Assembly (NCBI GenBank): GCA_023052935.1 | Contig: CM041292.1 | Span: 95,843,237-95,907,236, forward strand | Direction of reading: 5' to 3' | DNA length: 64,000 nt | Origin: Piezodorus guildinii | Lineage: Eukaryota; Arthropoda; Insecta; Hemiptera; Pentatomidae | In this document: one piece after another, positions 3,227 through 64,000 of the stretch | How the letters are laid out: every line of letters begins with the position of its first letter | How positions within the stretch are numbered: position 1 is the stretch's first letter | Translations under genes and position numbers: made by a program | Notes under the pieces: model-generated | Told to the model about the DNA's origin: nothing | Database searches by the model: none | What the model saw: the letters and a program-made list of their open reading frames with translations, nothing else

Positions 3227-4303
3227 GCCTTGTTGTACTTTTTCCGGTCAGCTGCAAGCCCGTTGAAAACTCAAACATTCAAGCCCTCAGACCCTGGGTT
3301 CCTCCACTGTTTCTGCGTTCAGACGTCTTTAGAAATATTCATTCGACCTTTTCCTTCTAAAGTCTCTGTGATTATTGCACAACCGAGGCTGTTAACATTT
3401 CACTAAATGGCTGTAAAAATTAACAGAAAACACCTTATAAGCAGTGATCAGAAATCTAAAAATCCGGTAATTCCTGCAGTATGAGGAAGAATATTCCCCT
3501 TGAATAAGTGTGCCGTTACGGATTCCTTTTTTTTTTTCTTTAATATCTGCAATAAAATGAGTTATCATGAGTATCAATCAAGTAAATGTTTATAAGACTT
3601 CGAAAAAAGTTCAAAAGGCGTTTACTTAAACCGTTGAATTTCCTGTGGGCAACCCGCGATAGCCCAGGAACTTCCTAGACCTCAACTAGTAGCCAGAAAG
3701 ACTAATGACAAAGACTGGACCCCCAGCTTCGTGTAATTCCCATAACAGCCCCACTTTCTTTGTCATGATCACCGAGAGGAGATTCCAAAATATAGTATTT
3801 TTGAAAAGAAGAGGGATAGAAGTGATGAGGGCGATAATAGAGAATCAGAGAGGGTCAGCTGAAGTCCAGCGAGAGAGCCAGTCGAGTTCAAGAAGAGGAG
3901 AGTGGTATAGGAGGGATAGAAGAAGCAGAGATTCGAGAGAGCCTAGATGGGACTCCTGCGACAAATTCCACCAAGTGTCATGAGGTAACTTCTTTGTAAT
4001 ATTGTTTGGCTAAGCTGTTAGTAATGATTCTCTCAGTATTATCCTTCAAAGATCAAGGTATTGTGTAAATAGATTGTATATGTTTAAGTTAATTTAAATA
4101 ATAATGTTATTTATTGAAACCTAGTTAATTTAATCTTCTTCTGAGTGCCACCTACTTGGATTGGTAAACAAGATACCTTTGAAATAGAACTCGAATGGTT
4201 CCAAAAGATAGTATATAAATATATTAAATATATTAATTAATACAGTTTCGAAGGTACCGCTGCCTTAGAAAAGCAATCTGTCAAAAACATATATATACAT
4301 TGT

Positions 4304-7964: not shown

Positions 7965-8535
7965 ACTTTTTTTTCAGTTTTCTCCTTTATTTGTTTTTCA
8001 AATTCGCTCAACTTGCATATTTACCTGTAATTTATCAATGTTAACAAGATAATATGGTTATGTTTATAGAATCTTCGAAACTAAAGCTATATTGGAGAAA
8101 GAAAAATTAAAATATCGGAATTTATGCTCTGTCAGACTATTTTCATCAGAATTAAACCTACATAGCGTTAAAGCCCATTAAATTTTACATCGATGTAGCG
8201 AGTTTAATTAAACTCGTTAGAGTCGTTTCGAGAAAATCGTAAAAATGTGCAAAATGCGTGGTATAAAGTGGCTCTTCTGTAAGGCTGATTTTGATGAAAA
8301 AGGTTTTGTTACGTCTCGGGCGTATAGTTGTCTGAAATATGAAATTCTATTTTCGTACGACTAATGGCTTTTGCGCTAGACTTACCACACACACATACCT
8401 TTTTTTGGGACTTGGTCATTTGGACTCAGAAGACCCTGAAACATTATTTCCGTTGAAAACTGGAATTCGAAATTTTTTACCATCGCAATACTTTCCCTAA
8501 CTATATATAGTGAGTGAAAGTAAAACACATTATTT
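7965..8535 (+). repeat. M1 dispersed repeat, 3' two-thirds
   Basis: Aligns by eye with 62110-62690: TTCGCTCAACTTGCATATTTACC, the TCGTAAAAATGTGCAAAATGCGTG block, TCTCGGGCGTATAGTTGTCT, the TACCACACACAC site, TTTGGACTCAG, and a terminal GAGTGAAAGTAAA. The head is missing. Confidence 0.8.
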
Positions 8536-10293: not shown

Positions 10294-10660
10294 ATAGTGG
10301 AGATTTCCTTCTTTGGCCGAAACTTTTCTGAAGTTCCATTTTCTGGTCCCATCATAGTTCCTTATTTGAACCTGGTCACCTATTTCGAAATTCCTTGCCG
10401 CTAAATTTTCCCTGCTGGCCTCCTCGTCTGACTCTTTTAGAAGATCCAAGCGAGTTCTGATTTTTCTCCCAAATATAATTTCAGCTGGACTCATATTAGT
10501 TATACTATGAGGTGCATTCCTGTACTGCATCAGAAGCCGGCTGAGCTTCAAGGAAATGCCACCAGTTTCCGCCGCCATTGCCTTTAACCCTTTCTTAACT
10601 ACCTAGACGTACCGTTCAGCCTGGCCGTTGGAAGACGGATGATATGGCGCTGTTCTTTTG
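10291..10660 (-). pseudogene. Gypsy integrase, C-terminal part
   Basis: The open frame at 10578-10291 encodes SRLLMQYRNAPHSIT, SPAEIIFGRKIRTRLD and the C-terminal GDQVQIRNYDG domain, ending FRKVSAKEGNLHY and a stop that overlaps the LTR. Just upstream (about 10650-10600, - strand) is [13 protein letters not shown], containing the third catalytic residue (Glu) of the DDE triad, followed by an in-frame stop. Confidence 0.85.
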
Positions 10661-10679
10661 TGGCGTATTCCGTTTGATT

Positions 10680-11000
10680 TCAGAAACTTTTGAAATTCTG
10701 TACATGTGAATTGGGCCCGTTATCTGTGACCAGAATTAATGGTAGTCCAAATCTGGCAAAAATGCTCCTGAGTTCCGTAATGGTCCTTAGCATCGTGATT
10801 TTAGGTACATCTAACCATTTCGAGAATGCATCTACTAGGATTAAGAAGTAACATCCCTGGAAGGGACCTGCAAAATCCATGTGTAGCCGTTGCCATGGCA
10901 TCGTTGGTGGCTCCCACGGGTGGACAGTCTTTGGTAGATTATTCGAATTCTCACAGCATGGCTTACAATTACATACCAGCCTCATACCAGATGTCAGCAT
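10680..11000 (-). pseudogene. Gypsy integrase, catalytic core first half
   Basis: Encodes WQRLHMDFAGPF with the first catalytic Asp, then ILVDAFSKW, then LVTDNGP with the second Asp. These are the DDE-core motifs of LTR integrases. The frame breaks after 10680 and again before the Glu motif. The sequence upstream of 11000 carries the zinc-binding region only weakly. Confidence 0.85.
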
Positions 11001-11164
11001 CGATTGTTAGCCACCAACAATAACTTCTTGCCAACCCTTTCATCTTTCTTACACCGATGTGAGCTGCATGTAATTCGGCGAGTACTAGGTTTTGTATTCT
11101 TCTGGGTATAGCGATCCGATCTCCTCTGAAGACACACCCATCTTGAAGACTAAAAATTGTTGAA

Positions 11165-11650
11165 TCATTTTTGTTGACCTTTTCCTGTTTTCAGGGCTTC
11201 TATCAGAGGAGCTAAACATGGATCTCGGCTAGTTGCTTCTGTAAGCATCTTTCGAGTAACGGGCATAACCTCAGCCTGTTTCAACTGGAAGATTGTAGCT
11301 TCATTCATTGTGTCCTGTAGAACGTTTTCTGCTGGAAATCGGGATAAATAGTCTGCGTTAGCATGATTCTTCGTGCTTCTGTAGACGATATGATAATCAA
11401 ATCCGGACAAAAATATAGCGTATCGTAGCATCCGTGTTGCTGACAGAGAAGGCAAAGCTTTATCTGGACTAAGAATAAACGTTAGCGGGAGATGATCAGT
11501 TACAAGAGTAAAAGGTCTACCATAACAGTATAGAAAAAAAATGTTGCAAACCCCAGTATAATGATGTAGCCTCTTTGTCGATTTGACTGTAATTCTATTC
11601 ACTTGAAGTGAGGGTTCGAGAAGCGAAGCTGATCGGTCTTTCTGATCCAT
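11165..11650 (-). pseudogene. Gypsy RNase H and tether region
   Basis: Contains FTLVTDHLPLTFIL and NADYLSRFPAEN, the RNase H end and conserved NADxLSR box of Gypsy polyproteins. It overlaps the preceding pol fragment in another frame at 11595-11650, showing a frameshift inside RNase H. Confidence 0.85.
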
Positions 11651-12089
11651 CTGGCATTCTGTGTGACAATACTGCTCCGAGGCCGTAGGGTGAAGCGTCT
11701 GTACTTAGTATAAGTGGTAGTTTTGGATTATATGGAATCAAAACCTGATTGCTGGTTACTTCTTCCTTGATTGTCTTGAATGCCCGTTCGCATTTCTTTG
11801 TCCATTCGAATTTAGTTCCCTTTTGAAGGAGAGCATACAGTGGTTCCAGAATAGCGGCCAAGTTTGGAATGAATTTATTGTAATAGTTCGCCATTCCTAA
11901 GAAGGTTCTTCGCTCAGAAACGTCCTTTGGGGGTCTAGTCTTCACGATGGCGTTAATCTTGTCTGGGTCTTTGTGTAAACCATCTTTGTCTATTATGTGG
12001 CCCAAATTTAACTGGATTTTGTTTTCTCGTAGCCGATCGAAAAGTAACTTAAGCCGTGCCATCGCTTCTTTCTTGGTACTGTCTTGCAC
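11595..12089 (-). pseudogene. Gypsy RT thumb/connection and RNase H start
   Basis: Encodes RRTFLGMANYYNKFIPNLA (thumb), LQKGTKFEWTKKCERAF (connection) and STDASPYGLGAVLSHRM (first RNase H Asp), then FASRTLTSSE before the frame shifts. It follows the catalytic palm without long gaps. Confidence 0.9.
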
Positions 12090-12715
12090 CTTAATATCAT
12101 CATAAAAACAAGAAACGCCTTCTGAACCTTGTAAGGCCTGGTCGACGGCCTTTTACCAAGTTGCTGGTGCTACTTTTACGCCAAACATAATCCTCTTGAC
12201 TCTGAAGATACCTAGGTGGGTGTTTATAGTCTGGAGTAATGCGCTCTCTTCATCCATGGGAATGTTTAGATGGGCCTGTCGAACGTCCAGCGTGCAAAAA
12301 TACCTTCCGCCACTCATACGTGCAAATATGTCCTCAATTCGGGGAAATGGGTAATGTTCGTCCTGGAGTAGGGGTTTAAGGTAGACTTATAATCAGCGCA
12401 AAGTCTGATTGTTCCAATTGGTTTCACAAAAGGTACCACAGGAGTTGCCCAATCTGAATGGGTTATTTTCTCAATAATTCCTTCAGATTTTAATCTCTTT
12501 ATTTCGTTACCAACAGGTTCTAGAAGCGCGTAAGGAACTGGTCTAGCCCTCTTAAAAATAGGTTTTACATTATCTTTTAATTTAAATGTACATGTGGCAT
12601 GAGAGGTTTTTCCCACCTTATTAGCAAATATATCTGAATAAGAAGATAACAGTTTATTTAACTCTAACTCAGGTGGTTGACATGTTTTAACCACGTGGAT
12701 ATCTGCTAAGTTCAC
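12090..12715 (-). pseudogene. Gypsy reverse transcriptase palm
   Basis: 12715-12314 encodes the N-terminal RT fingers (PVPYALLEPVGNEI, EGIIEKITHSDWATPVV, GTIRLCADYK). The next segment, in a shifted frame, reads YFCTLDVRQAHLNIPM and then the catalytic box as FYDDI at about 12100. An in-frame TAA replaces the codon after APATW. The aspartates of FYDD are retained, but the frame is broken at least twice. Confidence 0.85.
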
Positions 12716-12840
12716 TCAAAGTTCCCGGATTCAGTCCCTTCCCATGATAGAGTCCATTAATTGGGGAATAACAACTAAGTTACCTGTGATTCTCTTGCCT
12801 TCACATTGAACCTTGACCTGACAGACGCCTAATGGTCAAA

Positions 12841-13353
12841 TTATTTCGTTGGTGAATGTTCGAAGTCTAATGTTGGTAGGTTGGAGTTGTTTGCTCGGGA
12901 GTAGTCTTTCGAAAGTCTTTTCGAGATGGTCGTAACGGCGGCACCGGTATCCAATTCTGGTTCCAAATGCTTACCTTCGATGATCACATTTATCATCATT
13001 TTACCATCCGGCCGTCCCTGAAACTGATGAATTTCGTATACATTTCGAATTTGATGAACTTCAAAATTCTCATCTATCTCCGAGTCATCCTCCGCTGTTG
13101 ACATGACGTCTAAATGGTTCTGATTACGTTTTCTCTGCCTTTCGGAGCTAAGGCATACGCGGGTCAGGTGTCCGATTTTCCCACATTCTCGGCATTTTGT
13201 TTTCTTGGCATTACAATCCACGCTGCGATGTCTCTTCTTCCTGCATCGATAAAAAGAGCCCTGAAGTTGTTTCAGCTTCTCCCTAACTAGTCTGTACTGT
13301 GATCGTTTCTTCTCCTTGCTCACTTTATTGACAGTTAAATGTGAGCTTCTCAT
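12841..13353 (-). pseudogene. Gypsy gag nucleocapsid and protease
   Basis: The CCHC knuckle CRECGKIGHLTRVC is intact; the one before it (YRCRKKRHRSVDC) has lost its first Cys. Further along is the aspartic protease active site LDTGAAVTTIS. Knuckles bind element RNA; the protease cleaves Gag-Pol. The frame ends about 120 bp before the RT fragment. Confidence 0.85.
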
Positions 13354-13369
13354 TTGTTGGCTTTCTAGC

Positions 13370-13960
13370 TTAGCAGTCTCTGTAGCAAGAGACAGTTAAC
13401 AGCGTCATGGAATGTCATATTTTCCTGCTCTAATATTTTTTCTCTAATGTCATTATCACTAATCCCCCGTACAAATTGAGCTCTTAAATGAGTTTCCATT
13501 GTGGACTCCTGACACTTTTGACAGGTGAAGTCACAATTATTGGCACTTTGCCGCAGATTAGCAACATATTGACCGATTGTTTCATCAGACTTCTGATGTA
13601 GAAGAACAAATCGATGTTGTTCTGCTATTTTGCTGGCTTGAGGACACAGATGAGTTTTTAAAATCTTAATGGCTTCTTCATAAGCTAGATCTTAGGAGCT
13701 AAGGAAATTAAAGTCTGGAATATTTTTGGACTTAAGCTATTTATAAAAATGTGTAACTTACGAGTTTTGGAGGCTTCATCTGCACCATCAAGTCCTTTTA
13801 AAGCCAAGAAGTTCTCGAGCCGCAAAACTTAGGCCTCGAACGTTTCCTCATGGTCATCAAAAGGTTGAAAAATAAGCCCGTGAACTTGGTGTTTGGACTG
13901 TTCTGTAGCCGCAGTTTCTCGGACTTGAATCCGTTGAAGAGCTGCCACTCGACTCGATAA
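13370..13960 (-). pseudogene. Gypsy gag capsid region, fragmented
   Basis: On the - strand, with stops between pieces: LENFLALKGLDGADEASK, YEEAIKILKTHLCPQASK, DETIGQYVANLRQSANNC and AQFVRGISDNDIREKILEQ. These match the retrotransposon gag domain of mag-type Gypsy elements. A stop near 13829 and another near 13692 break it. Confidence 0.75.
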
Positions 13961-20400: not shown

Positions 20401-23400
20401 GTGAGAATAATTTGAACTTATGCTTCATTGGTTCTTAAAATATGAGTGTGTAACCGTTTTTTATTTATTTATTTTTTTTTTTTCCTTTTCCAGTCTAAAG
20501 CAAATTTGGTCTGGGCTTGGATCCTTGGCAACAGTTCTTTTTGCGTTGTAAGCTCCGTTGTAGGTGCGGGTGGTTTAATACTTCATAACGTATGGTTTGT
20601 GATAGAAAATCTATTCATAATAGGTAAGAAGAAAAAACTAACTATAAAATATCGTTAACAATAGCAACCAGTATATTATAAATACATTAATACGAATTCA
20701 AGAGTAGCTTTAAGCAATAACTTTAAAGGCTTCCAAAAAATTAAAAAAGAAAAATTTATATAACCAAAGGAAAGTTCTTACAAGCGCTTAATTTCACACC
20801 TAAACAGTTGAATTTCTTACATCACTAATTTCACTTTTCTGTAGATCTTTAAGCAATATTCTCCGAAATCTCTTGTGATCAAACATATTCTACAAAAATC
20901 AACTCTCAATAAATCCTTAAAAGTACCCTACTATCTTTATTAAAAATACCATAAATTTAAATGCATCGTTTCGGAATTCGTCACCAACATCTAACACCTT
21001 AATAAGTACTACGATTTTTGAAGCTCTCTAGCACTCTAGAAAGCAAAAATAGTTGGGTGCATTTCTTGAAACAGTACAAATTTTTGACCGGTGAACGCGG
21101 GTTGTGTTTCTATTGTAGCTCAAAATCCATTTACCCCTGTAACTGATAAATAGTCCTTCGACCTTAATTGCTCCTTCAAACAGCGTCTTGCGTCCAGTCG
21201 TTATGAGGGAATTTTACTTTACTTGTAATATTCCTACTAGCCATAACAGATAACGTTTCCTCATGATTCCGTCATCCTATAATACGAATTAGATCCTGAA
21301 ACCTCACAAAACTACGAAAAAAGGTTCTTTTTTGCATTTACTTAACTGTATATGAAATATATAGTAGCGAAAAGTATTGTGAACGTTAAAATTTTAGAAA
21401 TTCAGTTTTAAACGGTAACACGCGTTTCAGGGTCCTCTTAGTCTAAATAATAAAGTTCCACAAAGAGGTCTGTGTGCCCGTTTGTGTGTATGTCGTAAGT
21501 CTCGCGCGAAAACGACAAGCAATATAAAACTAAAATTTCATATTCTAAAAGCGTCGTTGTCAGAGATGTTTTCAATCAAAATTGCCTTAATACCATCTTT
21601 ATACCATGCATATTGCATCTTTTTACGATTTTTTCAAAATATAATGACTAATAATATAATGGGCTTTAACACGATGTAGGTTTGATTCTGATTGAAATAG
21701 TCTGACAGGGCTTAAATGCCGATAGTTAAAATTTTCTATTTCTAAAATACCTTCAATTTTATAGATTTAAAAGAATTAACCTTACCATCTTGTTAGCATT
21801 GATAAAAAACATAAATATATAATTTGAACGAATTCTATATCCTACGAAACGAGAAAAGAGCAAAAAATATATTTTCAAGCAATTTTTGTATTTTCAACAT
21901 AAAAACAGTAATATAGATGTATAATATACCGTTGGAAAGCTTAAGATTTTAGAAAAAATATTATCTTATTCTCAAAATTGTAAAAGTTAACTGAGAGTGA
22001 CGAAAAGCAGATAAAACTAACTGATTGTCGTACATAATAATATAATAGAGTACTTAATAGAACCCATGTTTTTATTAAAACAATGTAAATAATTCTTTAA
22101 CAATTTATTTTTGTTTCTAAATGTGTTTTTCAAATTCTTAAATTGATTTTAACAACGGTAAAAGTAAGTGAAAGTCATTTGTTACACCAGATTTTTTTTT
22201 ATTGAACAGTGCTGTAATTAAAGTAAATGCATCTAAATGTAAGCATGTCAAAGAGTTCAGTGCCGTCCTCCAGTTCAGTTGATTTCCGCATTTCTTCCCT
22301 TCTTACGCAAGATCCTGTATTTAGCTTCCAATCTTAAAAGCTTAACCAAAAACCTAACGTATTATACTTATTACTAAATTGAAAGTATTGGTGTTAGTTT
22401 ATTAGTTGGCTCGAACTCATCAAAAACTTCTGACATCAAATGCATCCAGTCCTTTCAGTCCGAAATCCTTCGACCAATAGTTAAGGTTCCAGACTATTCC
22501 AATATCTTCATATTTGTTTTTCTAAGAACTTATTCCAGTTCCAGGAATTTAATAACCCAAGAAAGCTTTTAAATTTGTAAATTCAATTAAATCTATGAAT
22601 GATTGTGGGTGGTAGATCCTCAATGAGCGTCCATTTCTTCTCATTTCTGTGAGCTCTAGTAACGCCCTGGTCCTGTTTTTACCTTCACAAGTAAACGGAC
22701 TTGATTGAGTGGATTTTACAAACATAGTTTAAAGTTTTCCCCCACTGATTGTAAATGTTTAGCGAAAATATCTCTATGTTTAAACTTTGTATTTTATGGA
22801 GCTGATTTAATTTTTTTTTTTTTAATTCTTTAAAGACCAATTTTAAATTTGTTATATTTCTTTCTTTTTGTTTTACATTTCGCCGTTACAATCACACTCT
22901 CATTTTGCCTTTCATAAGATGTCTTTTAGATTCATCTATTATCCTATGTGTTTGTACCAACTAAGATCGAATTCAATATGAGTTCATAAAATAATTTACT
23001 ATTATCAATATCCATTGTTTTCAATGATTTTAATATATATTATTGAATCATATAAAAAAAAAAATAGAAAAAAGTCTGTCAATAAGGTCAGTGTAACTTG
23101 CTAACTATAGAATAGAATAGAATAGAAAAATGAACTTTATTCTGGGACATAGTCCCTTAAGAATAACATTGATGTTACAAATAAATATAGCTCTTCTGGC
23201 CAGCATACATATAAAAGATTGAATTATTTACAAACTTAATTATTTACATAGTTATGGTAGATTAACCAAAAAAAAAAAAAAAAGAAATAAATAAAATTTA
23301 AAATATATACATACACTCACACACACACACACACACACACAACACACACACACTCATCCACAAACCACAAAGTAAGGATCATAATAATAATGATAATAAT

Positions 23401-31737: not shown

Positions 31738-32145
31738 AACCAAATCCCATTTTTCAGACCTCTATACACCTTCCCATAGAACCGACAGATATGAACGTTT
31801 CTTCTAAGAAAGTTTTTTCCTTCTCTCCACTGTTTTCTGGAACATTCGCTATGTTCCTTCCTAATCTTCTTTTGAATCTCCCTATTTTAACACTTCTTCC
31901 TTCCGAACAAGATGTTAATTGATTTGAATATACCAATTAATGTGAGATTAAAATGTCTACACTTCTTAACACCAGTAATTTTTTTTTTTCATATTATCAT
32001 ATAGGATACTATTTTATTTTCATCATTTGAAGATAATATTATATATTTATTGTAATTATTATTATTTTTTTTTAAAATGTTCTTTGATCATATTTTTATT
32101 TTACATTTATGTTATTCCTATAGAACCTTATCTCAGAATAAAGTT
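31738..32145 (+). mobile_element. CR1-like LINE C-terminus and 3' end, decayed
   Basis: The + strand reads SDLYTPSHRTDRYERF near 31757, matching SDLYVPSHRT in sister copies. Near 32124 it reads CTTATCTCAGAATAAAG, a decayed version of the shared 3' terminal motif. Confidence 0.65.
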
Positions 32146-32230
32146 GTTTTGTTACATTTTCGAAATATTGTGCAGTAATCCTAGTTTGCAACATATAAAG
32201 TTGAGTTTAGGGTTGGACATGGCTCAGTAA

Positions 32231-32272
32231 TGCCCTGATGATGGCTCACAAGCTTGAGCCGAAACGTTGGCA
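32231..32272 (+). ncRNA. Type I hammerhead ribozyme motif, copy 1
   Basis: TGCC (helix I 5' strand), CTGATGA core at 32235-32241, helix II GGCTCA/TGAGCC around a CAAGCT loop, GAAAC at 32261-32265, then GTT and GGCA (helix I 3' strand). Helix III would be only A-U and C-G; the palindromic AACGTT suggests cleavage as a dimer. The expected cut is after GTT, between 32268 and 32269. Confidence 0.8.
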
Positions 32273-32412
32273 AAATTAAAAAACCTTTTTAAAAATAACT
32301 GATTCCTGACTATTCCACCTATAATAGTTTCTACAGTCGACTATACACCCTCAATATAATTCACTCTACTTGGGACCTCAACTTGAGTTTATGCTTGGAC
32401 ATGGCTCAGTAA

Positions 32413-32454
32413 TGCCCTGATGATGGCTCACAAGCTTGAGCCGAAACGTTGGCA
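32413..32454 (+). ncRNA. Type I hammerhead ribozyme motif, copy 2
   Basis: Identical over the ribozyme to copy 1, shifted by 182 bp: core at 32417-32423, GAAAC at 32443-32447, expected cut between 32450 and 32451. Cutting at both sites would release a 182-nt RNA (32269-32450) with ends suitable for circularisation. Confidence 0.8.
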
Positions 32455-32639
32455 AAATTAAAAACCTTTTTAAAAATGACTGATTCCTGACTATTCCACC
32501 TATAATAAAGTTGAAACGTTGTATCTTTGATGTTGATATTGATGGTTTCTTCTACTTCTCGTAGTAACTAGTAAAATTTCCGTATTTTCCCCCTCGAGTT
32601 TTGTGTGAAGAAGCATGAGATGTAGAGAAAAATTATTTT

Positions 32640-33575
32640 ATAAAGATTTTTTTGGTAGGGTGTTGCCTTTCCTTTAATCTTGCATTAGAAAAGGTGGTTA
32701 GAGAGGCTAGCATAAAGAGGACTGGGCACTATCCTTAATTGAGCTGACCAGATACTGGTCAATGCAGATGACATTGACATCGTGGGACCGTCCTTTCAGG
32801 CCACCAAGGATGCATTTACGACCCTAGAGGCCTCAGCAAGAAGACTTGGCCAACAAATTAATGAAGAAAAGACCAAATTTAAGGTTTCAGGCCAGAGGGT
32901 CGGGCTATCATGGTCTACTTATCTCCAGAAGGAATGGATTATTGTCGGATCCAACCTCTTTGAAAAGTTTTATGAATTCGTTATCTCGGCTCTCAGAAAA
33001 ACTTAGATAACGACATGGCAGCCTAGATTAAAAGAAGAATGAAGCTTCTTCTGATTTGGATGCCTTTTTTTTAGAAGCTACTATCTCACAAAGATAACAT
33101 GAATAAGTTATAAAAAGTATTGCTCTATGGCTCTAAGACTTGGATCATCTCAAAGTTGGACGAGCAACGACTATTAGTTTTTGAAAGAAAGTTTCTGCCG
33201 CGAATGTACAGTCTATCGGAGGTAGGTGAGGTATAGAAGCGAAGACCCAATTGGAGCTCTATACGCTATATGCACAGCCAGGCATTATGAGAAATTTCCG
33301 CATGCAGAGGCTAAGGTGGGCTTTGCACATCGCCAGAACGTTACAACCGAGTGTTCCCAAGAGACTGGTGTCTGAAGTCTTATGGCCCTAGAGGCTTCCA
33401 ATACCTAAACTACGGTGAAGAGAAATAGACGAGTGATTACAGATTTCTTTTTGGAGTAAGGAATTGGACTGCGACTGCCCAGGATAGAGAGAGATGGAGA
33501 AGACTTCTGGAGGAGGCACTGACTCATTGATTGGGTTGTTGTGACACTGATGATGATGATGCTAATTAAAATGCT
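32640..33575 (+). mobile_element. RTE-like LINE, 5'-truncated
   Basis: The frame at 32782-33006 follows a catalytic box just upstream (about 32762, reading NADDIDIVG) and encodes ASARRLGQQINEEKTKF. Then, after breaks: LYGSKTWIISKLDEQRL (33120), FERKFLPRMYSL (33180), MQRLRWALHIARTLQPS (33300). The 3' end is a TGATGATGATGATG tail at 33551. The order matches the insect LINE group with the YADDIDI box. Inactive. Confidence 0.75.
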
Positions 33576-40853: not shown

Positions 40854-42143
40854 TCAAATAAGCTTGTAAAAATCCATTTGAGTGAGGAGACACATTAATT
40901 CATCAATCCTTTTTCCATTGTTTCCCAAAGCATCTGCGACGTTGCTTGGTATTCTATTTTTGTTCAGCTGCCTGATGTAGAAGAAACATTCTTCAAAAAT
41001 ATGAGCTATGGTCAAGGTTTCCCTACAATGCTTGCATCTTGGGGACAATTCTTTTGATATTATGTGCCCATGCGTTAGCCGTGTGTGTCCGATTCTCAGG
41101 CGGGCCAGAACCACCTCTTCTCTACGGTCGGTGCGACTTGAGGTTTTCCATGGTTTTACCTCTTTCTTAATCGCTTTGAGCTTACTTGGATAGATGTTCC
41201 AAGTTTCTTCCCATTTCTTCAATACATTTTCCATTAGTGGACGTGCTAGCTCGGATGGTGTCAGTAGTGTCCTACCACGACCTGGGAGTGTAAGGGCTTC
41301 TTTGGCAGCCTTATCTGCCATTTCGTTTACTATTATCCCCATATGGCCTGGTATCCACACATAATGGATTCTTTTTCCTTCTTCAGCGAATAATTTGGTT
41401 AATTCTAGGATTCTTAAAATTCCTGGATGGTTGGAATACATATTCTCTAGTGCTTTTAGAGCGCTTAATGAGTCAGAGGCTATGGTTATATTCTCTATAG
41501 GGAGTGTTCTGGAATAATCTAGAGCCATTGCGATCGCATTCACTTCAGCTGTGTAGACGGAGCAAAACTGATGTAGCTTCGTCTTGTAGGTGCAATCTGA
41601 TGTGACAAAAGCTGAGCCAGTGGCTGAGTCCGACTTTGAACCATCTGTGAAAATTAATTTGTGGGTAGGCAATGTGCTGATGATCTTCTCAAAACGGTCT
41701 TTGAAATTTATTGATTTGGAATTTTCTTTAGTATATTTTGCCAATTGAAGATATAAATAAGGTTTTTGGAATGTCCATGGTGGTGTCTTGTTTTTTACTG
41801 CATTTATATTTATTAATTTTAACTTGTTAACTACGGATGATATTCTTTCTGCTAGTGGTAAGGTTGGGTTAGCTTTTAGTTGAAATCTCGCTGAGTATTT
41901 AGGTTTGAAGATGTATCCGTGAACAGGATGGGTAGATTGTGTGAATAATTTGGTGATGTAGTTGATGGCCAGTTTATCACGTCTGTAAGATAATGGTGGT
42001 AAGCCAGATTCTGCGCAAAGACTTAGTGAAGGACTTGTCCTGAAAGCTCTTATGGCAATGCGTATGCCTGCATGGTGTACTACATCGAGTTTAGCCAGTT
42101 TGTCCCTTTTTGCAGAACCAAAGACAAAACACCTATACTCCAT
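40854..42143 (-). pseudogene. I-type LINE ORF2: RT tail, RNase H, CCHC
   Basis: 429 codons without interruption. Residues 1-130 are the RT C-terminus (KLDVVHHAGIRIAIRAFRTS, LSYRRDKLAINY). Residues 165-290 are RNase H: FTDGSKSDSATG with the first Asp, TAEVNAIAMAL with Glu, ASDSLSALKAL with the second Asp and NEMADKAAKEAL with the last Asp. RNase H would remove the RNA strand during target-primed reverse transcription. Residues 345-395 give VLARLRIGHTRLTHGH and a CKHCRE...H..EC zinc motif. It is the best-preserved long frame of the window, but it lacks the upstream RT, so it is a fragment. Confidence 0.85.
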
Positions 42144-42318
42144 CTTTGAACTTATTATTGATAGGTATACTTTGAGTAAAGTAGTGCGATCTGCACCCCA
42201 ACTTGTTCCAGTTAAGATTTTCAGTATATTAAGTTTTTTTGTACATTTTTCTTTTAAAGATTTTATGTGATTCTCCCACGTTAGGCGTCTATCAAATTCT
42301 AACCCTAAGAATCTACAA

Positions 42319-42654
42319 CTATTTACGTATGGGTGAAGGAACGTTGTTGAGAAAGAGATCTGGTAGGTCCGGGTAATGTCTTCTTCTACTGAAATATAAG
42401 CATTTTGTTTTCTCTGCTGAGAACTTTAATCCTGACTTTTGTGACCAATCACTAACTCGATTAAGTGACGCTAGTAGCTTCTCTTTTATAGACTGCAAAT
42501 CTTTGGAGCGACAAAAGATTGCCAGATCGTCAACAAACAGCATTGGTTTGACTCCCCGTGGTAAATTGGTTGCTAGGTCACTGATTGCGAGGGTGAAAAG
42601 GGTTGTACTAAGAACGCAACCTTGTGGGACTCCATTTCTTTGTTCATGGGACAT
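42319..42654 (-). pseudogene. I-type LINE RT, catalytic region
   Basis: RNGVPQGCVLSTTLFTLAI, then the catalytic box FVDDLAIF, then SGLKFSAEKTKCLYF. Both aspartates are present. A frame break separates it from the 42143-40854 frame. The Jockey insertion truncates its 5' side. Confidence 0.85.
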
Positions 42655-42687
42655 GGACGATGTATTTCCAATTCAAACTTTGAAATA

Positions 42688-55284: not shown

Positions 55285-55825
55285 CGGCTAACCAGATGAG
55301 CAATTTAATACCATGCATTTCGTACCTTTTATTATAATTTTCCAAAAAACGATTTTCATTAAACTTTTTTTAACTCTTAACAATTTAATGAGCTTTAATA
55401 TGATGTAGGTTTCATTGTGAAATACTCTGAAAGAGCTTAAATGGCAATATTTTAAATTGTCTTCCTCTAAAGTACCTTCAATTCGTAGATTAGAAAAAAA
55501 TAACGCTTAATGTCTTGTAAACATTGATTTGGTATTGATAGATAGGTAATGAGCTAGCTGAACGGATCTGATGACCAGCAAAAGGAGAAAACAGAACACG
55601 CATTTTTTTTTTTTTTTTTTTTTTTTTATTCATTTTTTTTTTTTTTACTAAAGGTGCATAGGTGCATTATATACCGTAAGAGGCTAAATACTTTAGAAAA
55701 AAAATCGTATACAAAGTTGTATGTAATGTAATTGAGAGTGGTGAAAAGCAGATAAAATTAAATTATTGGCTTGATTATTTAATCTGAAACACATTTTTCT
55801 ATTGAAACTCGATTTTTACTTTATC
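55285..55825 (-). repeat. M1 dispersed repeat, head half, with an insertion
   Basis: ATGAGCTTTAATATGATGTAGG, CTCTGAAAGAGCTTAAATGGC and GAGAGTGGTGAAAAGCAGATAAAATTAA follow the M1 order in reverse. 55545-55650 (AGCTAGCTGAACGG... and a T-run) is foreign and looks like an RTE-type tail inserted into it. Confidence 0.7.
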
Positions 55826-57372: not shown

Positions 57373-59145
57373 AACACTCATGCTAAAATAGTTAAAGAGG
57401 CTAAAATTAATATAAAACTATCAGTCCATTTTGATCCTTATTGAAACAGGATAAACGAAATTTTAATTGAGAAATCATTATGTTGTAAAATAAGTTTATT
57501 GGTGATTTCAATAAAAACTTGTATTTTTAATCAATTTTATATGACTCATTTTGCTCTATTTCATGTTGCTATCTTTCAGGTATTTTTTGGATTTCCAGTT
57601 ATCATCAGTTGAACAGTTGAAGGACTGGAATTAATTTTTACTGGAGACGCTCTGCGTCTCTCAAGTAAACATTTCCGGTTCTAAAACGAACAAACCAATT
57701 CCGGACGGTGCTATCTCCAAAGGAATCATTCAATACACACGGAAAATGTTGTTAACCGCCTGTGCAGCGGATTTTTACTTTTTAGAAAAAAAAATCAATA
57801 AATGGTGAAAATAATTTTTTTCTCTTCCATTTTGAGCAAGCGAAATACTACTTAAAAATAAGGAATCTCGCTTGAAGCTGATGCATAAGAGCACCTTAAC
57901 TAATCCTTTTCAAGAATAATTAAAATTTAATGACAAAGTAAACGTTATTTTGTAAATAAAAGAAGGATTAAATTGAAACTTATTTTTACAACCCTAAAAA
58001 CTTATTTTCAATCCAACATTATAGGTAGTAATAGTCAGGAGTTATTCGCATAAAAAACAATTTAATTTATAACCCCCCATAGTTTCCTAGGACAAATCGA
58101 TTCCATACATACCATTTCTATCTCCTAAATTAAAAAAATCCTTATACTATTGCTTTTTCCATCTTCGATTAGTTTTAAAAATGACTGAAAATTAAAATAT
58201 TTATATATCAAACTTAAAGATCCTATCCATTTTCAAGAAATATCAAATTTAGTTTACCGCATTTCCTACTCCTCCCGTAATTGATATTCTTTCTACATAG
58301 GCGAAAGAAAAAAATATTTTAAAAATTATTATTTATCAAAAGAAATATACCATTTCTACCCGTCTTCCTCAAAATTATCTGAACATGTATCTATAACTTT
58401 GATTTTGACATCGTATTCACCGTACCTATTCATAAAAAATGACTCCTCTCCGAAGCTATCCATAGACATTCATATGGAAAAATAATTGGTAACCGTTAAC
58501 CATAAAACCGACAGAAAAATAATCTCTCCATAACATTCCAACATCTTTCGCCTCCTCAAATTGTAACCTTTTACTTACTTGCATTATTTTATTTCGTATT
58601 TATTAATCCAAATAATAATAAAACATAAGAACTTTTTATTGGTATTAGTAAAGTCTCATCACCTCTTTGCACGGCCTTTGGTCGTAAAACAGTACAAATT
58701 TCTATATCTATTAAAACTAAGAGCCTTTATAGGTTGTAGAGTTACAGAATTTATTTTCATTTATATCTTTTTTTAAATCATTAGCTAAATTTAACGTTGT
58801 AATAATTTTATTTTAACTTTTTCAATAATTCAATTATAAATTATTGTGCACTGTAGAATCTTCAATAGGACATTTAAAACCTTTGGAAAGAAACACAAAA
58901 AAAATTAAAAAAACATGCAGTTATAAATTTTTTACTATACAAAATATAGTCATACTTATTTATTTATCATCTATACTAGGGTCATTATAATTAATACAAA
59001 ACTAGGATCAAATACCACTCTAAAACTGATTTTTTATATAATTTCTCATACAAATATAGTAATTAATTTTAAATTGAATTCCTTTATAAATGATGGACAT
59101 GGCATAACTGAATAAACATACAATAAAACCGTTTACAGTGGTTCC
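57373..59145. other. No gene recognised
   Basis: Long AT-rich stretch. No repeat shared with the window, no credible frame. Confidence 0.35.
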
Positions 59146-61774: not shown

Positions 61775-62512
61775 AAAAAATCTGGTGCGCGCAACACACG
61801 ACTTTCACTTACCTCCGTTGTTAAAATCAATTTAAGAATTTTTAAATACATTTAAAGATACAAATAAATTGTCAAAGAATTAATTAAATTGAATTTCAAT
61901 AGAAACATGTGTTTTATTAAATAATCTTTTATATTTTTATCTACCAAAATCAGTTAGTTGTATCGGCTTTTCATCACTCTCCATTAACCTTCAAAATTCC
62001 GTGTATTAGATAATATTTTTTATAAAATCTTTAGCTATCCAACGGTATATTATACATCTATATTACTATTGTTGTGCTAAAAAACGCAAAAATTGAATAA
62101 AAAGTTTTTTAGTACTTTTCTCTTTTAGTTGTTTATCAAATTCGCTCAACTTGCATATTTACCAACGGTAATAAGGTGATATTCCAATTTTTTTTTTTTT
62201 TAAATCTACAGAATTAAACATACTTTAGAGGAAAAAAATATCGGCATTTAAGCCCTGTCAGACTATTTCAATCAGAATTCAACCTACATTATATTAAAGC
62301 CCATCAAATTTTACATCGATATATAGAGTTTAATCAAAATCTTTAGAGCCGTTTTTGAGAAAATCGTAAAAAGGTGCAAAATGCGTGTTATAAAGTAGAT
62401 CTTCCGGTCAGCTGATCTGGATGAAAATTTTTCCGTAACGTCTCGGGCGTATAGTTGTCTTAAATATGAAATTTCAGTTTCATAGCACTTTTAGTTTTCG
62501 CCCGGGAGTTAC

Positions 62513-62954: not shown

Positions 62955-64000
62955 TTTTTTTTTTTTTTTTATAATAATAACAATTTTTATTGAGAAAATT
63001 TTACAATCTGTCCCAATTTGGACATTAATAGTATTGCTGAATGATATCAAACATACTACATTCATACAATATTTACACAACATAAAATTACAATAAAATA
63101 TATACACAATAATGAATCAATACAAAAGTCAATAATTCACTTATACCTATATACACATACACACACTCATACATACATCACATTGAGTGGAGAATCTAGC
63201 CAGTGCTAGAACTCCAATATATTTACAAAAGGTCGCGGGGCCACTGCCGTTTCAACCTTCTAGGTGGGTTGTATGGATGAGTGGAGCTGGATAGGGATTG
63301 AGCTAAAGGATTAGGATGATGAATGAGGTTCTGGTGGAATTTGGAAAATTTGGATGGAATTAGGTCTGAAATAAATGGAACATTAAGGTCGTGGTGCAAG
63401 GTATAATTGGAGACATAATAAGGAGCATTTACTATTGTACGGAGGACTTTGGATTGAAAGGATTGAATGCGTTTGATGTTAGAACGTTTAGCTGTCCCCC
63501 ACAGTTCAAGTCCGTAGGTCCAGATGGGCTTCAGTATTGTCTTGTAGATTAATAATTTGTTTTCAACTGTAAGTTCAGATTTTCTGTTGAGTAGTCGGTA
63601 TAACTGTCCGAATCGTCGGTTGAGTTCTTGTCTTTTAAGTCTTGTATGTGGGTTCCAAGTCAATCTTTTGTCTAACAGTAAGCCAAGATACCGGACTGTA
63701 TCTGAGAGAGGAATCGGCAATGAGTTGAAATAAACTGGCGGACAGGATTTTCGTCTAAGAGTAAAGGTTATGTGTTTACATTTGGCTTCGTTCACCTTTA
63801 CACGCCAGTTATTACACCAGTGTTCGATAAGGAAAAGGTGTCTCTGAAGGTTTAAGGATGCTGTTTCAGGATTGGAACTGGATGATAGGATGGCGGTGTC
63901 GTCTGCAAAAGTTGCCAGAAAGGTATCAGGATGTGTAGGAATATCAGCAGTGTAAAGGATGTAGAGGATGGGTCCCAAGACGCTGCCTTGAGGAACACCG
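62955..64000 (-). mobile_element. Jockey LINE (subfamily B), best-preserved copy, runs off the window
   Basis: A poly(T) tract at 62955-62971 (poly(A) tail), a 3' UTR of about 250 bp, then an open RT frame to the window edge. The 5' limit is unknown. Confidence 0.9.
63223..64000 (-). CDS. Jockey-type reverse transcriptase, partial (open at window end)
   Basis: An uninterrupted frame of about 259 codons to TAA/TAG at 63223, entering from beyond 64000 with GVPQGSVLGPIL. It carries the catalytic box TFADDTAIL (both aspartates), domain D VNEAKCKHITFTLRR, RYLGLLLDKRLTWNPH, the IWTYGLELWGTA block and the Jockey-type end PPRRLKRQWPRDLL. The protein would nick target DNA with an N-terminal endonuclease (outside the window) and copy element RNA at the nick. 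No stop or frameshift is visible, unlike every other Jockey copy here except the short nested one, so it may be recent. Whether it is full length cannot be told. Confidence 0.85.
   Translation of the reverse strand, partial: GVPQGSVLGPILYILYTADIPTHPDTFLATFADDTAILSSSSNPETASLNLQRHLFLIEHWCNNWRVKVNEAKCKHITFTLRRKSCPPVYFNSLPIPLSDTVRYLGLLLDKRLTWNPHTRLKRQELNRRFGQLYRLLNRKSELTVENKLLIYKTILKPIWTYGLELWGTAKRSNIKRIQSFQSKVLRTIVNAPYYVSNYTLHHDLNVPFISDLIPSKFSKFHQNLIHHPNPLAQSLSSSTHPYNPPRRLKRQWPRDLL

Follow-up and report, generated by a model that had tools for sequence, protein, structure and literature searches.

A tandem hammerhead repeat in Piezodorus guildinii that probably derives from the spliced leader of a Penelope-like element

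The stretch of DNA analysed here (64,000 nucleotides, hereafter the window) contains an insert of about 300 bp, or roughly 1.65 units, running from the A at 32204 to 32507. The block has a GC content of 38%, and no frame of at least 110 aa in the window's open reading frame listing overlaps it, as expected from an earlier note, made from the letters alone, that described it as noncoding. The same note reported two identical hammerhead cores and a repeat flanking the block; the cores are indeed found, the first at 32235 and the second at 32417, a spacing of exactly 182 bp, and ATAAAGTTGA is present on both sides. The features are as follows, where PLE stands for Penelope-like element, L103 is the parent PLE described below, and coordinates preceded by E count from the A of AGTTTATGC as base 1, with exon 1 at 1-29 and the ribozyme cut between 65 and 66.

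32195..32204, no strand: left copy of the target-site duplication, ATAAAGTTGA, 10 bp; its final A doubles as element base 1
32204..32385, plus strand: unit 1, which begins at the start site and covers E1-E180 of the PLE leader (32204-32384, 95.6% identity), then an extra G at 32385
32204..32232, plus strand: leader exon 1 of unit 1; an intron of 235 nt comes next in the parent L103
32231..32272, plus strand: hammerhead 1, predicted cut 32268/32269; stem I TGCC/GGCA, stem II GGCTCA/TGAGCC, GAAAC, ACGT
32384..32386, plus strand: tandem joint, consisting of E180, the extra G and E1
32386..32507, plus strand: unit 2, PLE leader, E1-E122 at 97.5% identity, stopping at the first 3'-end site
32386-32414, plus strand: leader exon 1 of unit 2, the same exon as in unit 1
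32413..32454, plus strand: hammerhead 2, same sequence as hammerhead 1; predicted cut 32450/32451
32505..32514, no strand: right copy of the target-site duplication, ATAAAGTTGA; its opening ATA overlaps the element 3' end

Each core reads TGCC-CTGATGA-T-GGCTCA(N6)TGAGCC-GAAACGTT^GGCA, and the cut sites that had been predicted earlier agree with the placement of this motif. The cores depart from the textbook hammerhead in having an extra T (32242) between CTGATGA and stem II, and in having a helix III that consists of a loopless ACGT. The suggestion that helix III suits dimers can thus be kept in a refined form, since with ACGT alone a complete helix III needs two copies. Stem I straddles the exon junction (32232/32233), with TG coming from exon 1 and CC from exon 2. 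Rfam returned no match at the gathering threshold over the whole window and no hammerhead at E<=10 over 31900-32800. The earlier note would have counted such a miss against its claim, but it is not taken as refuting here because helix III is very short. Likewise, a strict hammerhead descriptor scan of the window found nothing, because the descriptor allowed no extra base and demanded a looped helix III. Among eight core variants, both sides change in 7 of 9 pairs of stems I and II, a score reached by 0 of 500 shuffles, while versions slid along the sequence give 0 to 4. The variants were picked by hand and their core letters were fixed by the search patterns, so that these letters are no independent evidence; with kinship possibly inflating the scores as well, the covariation supports the stems rather than the chemistry. 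The motif has a hammerhead core with one extra T and covarying stems I and II, but not the looped helix III of a canonical type I hammerhead.

The earlier note took the block for a mobile insertion that depends on another element, and pointed to Penelope-like terminal repeats. Both ideas agree with the findings: the insertion has a target duplication, and the unit shares its origin with the leader of a resident PLE, L103, in which the features are arranged in this order.

L103, 112: start site
L103, 112-140: exon 1
L103, 141-375: intron of 235 nt, GT-AG
L103, next in order: hammerhead, then both 3'-end sites
L103, further on: the reverse transcriptase frame, broken into overlapping pieces (187, 630 and 95 aa) that lie in different phases, then the second leader

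The 450-bp repeats of L103 (at 17-466 and 3440-3889) are 100% identical. Its leader is 98.5% identical to E29-225, and after removal of the intron it is 96% and 98% identical to the two window units (the joined leader kept one intron base, which produced one artefactual gap). The frame carries KYVDDLF and, by eye only, a GIY-YIG-like CYIGETKN. Pfam gave RVT_1 at 8.8e-7 and 29.3 bits, just below the cut-off of 29.6, and detected no GIY-YIG domain in the L103 frame. The L103 protein is 31% identical over 528 columns to the PLE protein of L018, which has a Pfam GIY-YIG domain and found no match in a PDB search. A search with the L103 protein found 1,103 homologues among 7,992 scored candidates; among the 120 listed, many carry RVT_1 plus PF26215 and a few carry GIY-YIG, and those named by species are all from insects. 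Many other PLE frames are present in the genome, with open frames of up to 961 aa; of 2,216 candidates for GIY-YIG, 150 were scored and 103 of these matched. At four further loci (L083, L084, L081 and L032) the homology does not stop at base 1 but continues upstream, across a segment with TTTTCCTC at its end, and GT follows directly after exon 1; the introns are 65 nt (L083), 221 nt (L084) and 567 nt (L081) long. TCAGTT is an arthropod initiator.

Elsewhere in the window, a decayed PLE 3' piece at 58071-58576 has 72.5% DNA identity to L103 2656-3185 and, when compared as protein, also matches the final part of the PLE frame. Four copies of a dispersed repeat (62210-62309, 21659-21722, 8109-8183 and 55383-55453) match L103 3953-4051, past the second leader, and retroelement-like frames occur at 10294-13691, 40857-42672 and 63226-63999 (protease/RT/integrase-like and jockey-like RT/RNase H, by eye).

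The absence of other genomic copies would, according to the earlier note, have spoken against a mobile family; thousands are present. In the host assembly (1.20 Gb, 434 contigs) the core pattern CTGATGAN{10,30}GAAACGTTGGCA has 7,676 + 7,597 = 15,273 matches, against 0 and 0 for the reversed control, and several stem II families occur among the listed places. When the block was used as a DNA query, 2,559 first-look candidates arose, 40 of which were scored, and 89 matches were obtained, spread over all seven contigs C1 to C7. Another hammerhead family, with stem II GACCC/GGGTC, forms a regular 296-bp tandem array (L085-L095, G000:C1:1194357-1197490), in which, as far as the listed places show, seven units of one strand face four of the opposite strand. 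Pattern scans of viral contigs gave 0, 2 and 0 loci; one locus, L001 in viral contig IMGVR_UViG_2928394966_000006, has two hammerhead-like motifs about 525 bp apart, at L001 positions 921 and 1446 on the minus strand.

The window units lack exactly the L103 intron, which indicates that they derive from spliced sense RNA. Leaders of this kind are abundant in the host genome: with 39-base patterns and one mismatch allowed, there are 4,418 spliced leaders versus 1,256 unspliced ones (an undercount, because the unspliced pattern ends in drifting intron bases), and reversed controls give 0. A first count of 5,336 unspliced leaders was discarded, because the two mismatches then allowed also admit spliced leaders. 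A second splice junction, ACTGAG^CCCTGATG, was seen at L065 690-1311, where it skips most of the PLE frame on both arms. It joins a donor that is present in L103 (ACTGAG/GTAAAC, 706) to the acceptor of the leader, and it is a further sign that spliced RNA was copied.

The ends of related insertions were compared at 45 loci, consisting of 38 best matches and 7 loci from the core pattern; because 38 of the 45 were chosen as best matches to the dimer, unit numbers in this set are biased. Of 62 clusters, 18 were dropped (fewer than 110 aligned bases, or a piece starting at E29, the exon junction), leaving 44 clusters at 41 loci, with 77 arms. Free 5' ends fall at E1-4 in 49/77 arms, at E69 in two, and away from E1-4 in 28/77 overall. 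The 3' ends cluster at two sites, with 36 at E119-126 and 32 at E150-161 (68/77 together; 9/77 elsewhere). These sites are 33 nt apart and lie about 57 or 90 nt past the ribozyme cut. The earlier note's term "retrozyme-like" holds for the short, noncoding tandem unit, but its 182-nt ribozyme-released RNA, or a circle made from it, is not supported as the mobile form: 0/77 free 5' ends are at the cut (E66) and no 3' end among the 77 arms is at E60-70.

The arms are arranged head to head in 33/44 clusters, and in 26 of the 27 pairs for which both ends could be assigned to a class, a short end is combined with a long one (p = 4e-7). Exact flank repeats of at least 10 bp accompany 24/44 clusters, against 0.12% of mispaired flanks; 20/44 clusters are without a 10-bp repeat. 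The family thus has PLE-type ends, with two 3' sites, inverted arms and a target repeat, and the window copy is a single arm ending at the first 3' site with a 10-bp target repeat. When neighbour pairs within 250 bp were counted by eye among about 100 listed leader places, 17 pairs were minus-to-plus, none plus-to-minus and one same-strand. Head-to-head copies are common, and same-strand dimers such as that in the window look like a minority outside the selected set.

The right side of the tandem joint is E1-4 in 60/64 cases, and the left side in these cases is at E164-E198, often with one or more extra bases. The 182-bp period is fixed by a joint whose left side varies among loci. Joints are mostly uniform inside an array and differ between many loci, but six joints recur, at 15/37 loci. 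Of the seven arms with three units, six use the same joint twice, although in L042 a single base differs; the exception is L033. Back-splicing was considered as a source of the joints and rejected, since the left side varies while AG is kept on the right. Units differ by 3.1% within the same arm (39 pairs), by 3.0% across arms (43 pairs) and by 5.4% between loci (4,175 pairs). Counted separately, the long arrays together with two old loci (L057, L063) give 5.0% (41 same-arm pairs) and 12.2% (955 between-locus pairs). Same-arm and opposite-arm distances did not differ: of 14 loci, 6 lean in one direction and 8 in the opposite one. Because units are alike within and across arms and more different between loci, a single RNA, or at least a single source, probably gave rise to both arms.

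Our preferred reading, to which we assign a probability of about 0.8, is that spliced leader RNA from a PLE of the same genome gave rise to the block as a non-autonomous insertion, moved in trans by PLE protein with uncut RNA as the template. As the sequence shows, the PLE RNA begins at the A of TTCCTCAGTTTATGC, and removal of the first intron joins exon 1 to the hammerhead exon. The PLE RT and GIY-YIG endonuclease, acting in trans, would nick the target, and copying would start inside the RNA at either 3' site; the ends are observed, and the involvement of the enzyme is inferred from the ends shared with the PLE. Copying would mostly reach the 5' end of the RNA. The other target strand would often prime at the other site, generating the inverted arm, whereas the window insertion made one arm. 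In some events, including that in the window, the template would be re-entered about 9 to 43 nt beyond the second site to give a tandem unit, a step suggested by the observed joint. The hammerheads would be carried along with the leader, on RNA left uncut at the ribozyme site. Target-primed copying that begins internally at two neighbouring sites is compatible with both the ends and the target repeats. Passages of PMC11167929 describe a purified PLE that has a pair of start sites with a tail lying between them and that takes uncut RNA as its chief template, and, for an Anolis PLE in vitro, insertion unaffected by ribozyme mutants and internal starts at adjacent sites. A more specific version is possible but tentative, namely that one spliced sense RNA serves both target strands at their own sites 33 nt apart, and that the telomerase-related Penelope RT re-enters this RNA to produce tandem ribozymes without a circle.

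The tandem units might instead be those of a metazoan retrozyme, with multimers cut by the hammerheads, ligated to 182-nt circles and copied round repeatedly by a helper RT. As characterized in parts of PMC7229834, metazoan retrozymes are defined by canonical type I hammerheads and circles, with PLEs as candidate helpers, and the window block has the expected size and composition (182 bp and 38% GC, for noncoding units of 150-450 bp below 50% GC), as well as the tandem order and a target repeat longer than 4 bp. Joints that are uniform per array and variable between loci, and the likeness of the units of one locus, are also what a circle copied more than once would leave. However, a circle has no 5' end, and the 49 free ends at E1-4 with none at the cut are hard to reconcile with one. 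The joint also differs from the ribozyme ligation site, L033 and L040 each contain two different joints, the hammerhead is minimal, and the unit is a PLE leader. We consider this route improbable.

Rather less unlikely, though still not favoured, is the idea that arrays breed arrays by transcription of whole arrays or by unequal crossing-over, so that the joint is inherited and not made at insertion. The uniform joints of six of seven three-unit arms, which count against independent jumps, and of the L043 and L046 arrays argue for it, as do the six joints found at more than one locus. Nevertheless, loci sharing a joint are no closer to each other than others (13 pairs, percentiles 0.13 to 0.81), so that reading them as lineages is unsupported; their mean identity is slightly higher, at 94.2% versus 93.3%. 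Moreover, the conserved sequence that precedes the start site is missing from spliced units. We therefore favour template re-entry for the joints, with crossing-over possible for longer arrays. A separate doubt concerns the ribozyme, which could be a dead or chance motif retained by descent alone. In its favour are the Rfam miss, the extra T and folding calculations, in which the free minimum (-67.0 kcal/mol) omits the core, compared with -56.8 for a forced dimer core and -62.6 for two forced single cores. The dimer core can be drawn free of knots, but its predicted energy exceeds the free minimum by about 10 kcal/mol and that of the two single cores by 6. Set against this is the covariation of stems I and II, along with the cleavage as dimers that passages of PMC7761336 and PMC6466107 ascribe to PLE hammerheads lacking a helix III loop (citing Lunse 2017 and Cervera 2014); in the relevant parts of PMC7761336, PMC6155905 and PMC6466107, PLE hammerheads are described as minimal and possibly working as dimers. 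A dead motif is thus unlikely, and the hammerheads may cut PLE or array transcripts as dimers.

Among known systems, the closest are PLEs with pLTRs, tails and minimal hammerheads. The sections of PMC11167929 and PMC3846280 that bear on them describe two 3' ends about 30 nt apart, head-to-head inverted copies, target repeats of about 10 bp, full elements whose leader contains an intron, a hammerhead that closely precedes the frame and a 5' start near an initiator-like TCA, all shared with the elements here. In particular, passages of PMC3846280 report inverted pLTRs, one of which carries a 31-bp tail, target repeats of 8-10 bp, retained introns and an initiator-like TCACT in a Penelope pLTR. 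The window insertion differs in lacking the protein frame and the leader intron, whereas PMC3846280, in those passages, stresses intron retention and leaves the choice between sense and antisense template open because introns are kept. The one-site-per-arm pattern is sharper than the "optional tail" of the PLEs described in these passages. Metazoan non-LTR retrozymes, as treated in parts of PMC7229834, share short noncoding tandem units, type I hammerheads, low GC and PLEs as proposed helpers; here, however, the hammerhead is minimal, the ends are not explained by cleavage or circles, and the unit is recognisably a PLE leader. The plant LTR retrozymes of PMC4918200, in the part that describes them, share a non-autonomous element with two hammerheads, but they have type III hammerheads, LTRs and 4-bp target repeats (according to a passage in PMC7229834), none of which is found here. 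PLE hammerheads, inverted copies and tails are known. A limited literature search of titles and abstracts turned up no description of PLEs with spliced leaders or of related retrozymes, PMC12910113 contained nothing on ribozymes, and within that search neither the spliced-leader swarm nor the one-site-per-arm rule was found described.

These results bear on the question of who moves the hammerhead repeats of animals. PMC7229834 put forward PLEs as strong candidates, and here such a repeat can be recognised as the spliced leader of a PLE itself, bounded by ends of the PLE type. They also bear on what PLEs copy: the thousands of intron-less leaders, whose sampled ends lie at one start site, suggest that the template, for the leader at any rate, is spliced RNA of the sense strand. 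Finally, the one-site-per-arm pattern provides a concrete geometry for PLE insertion.
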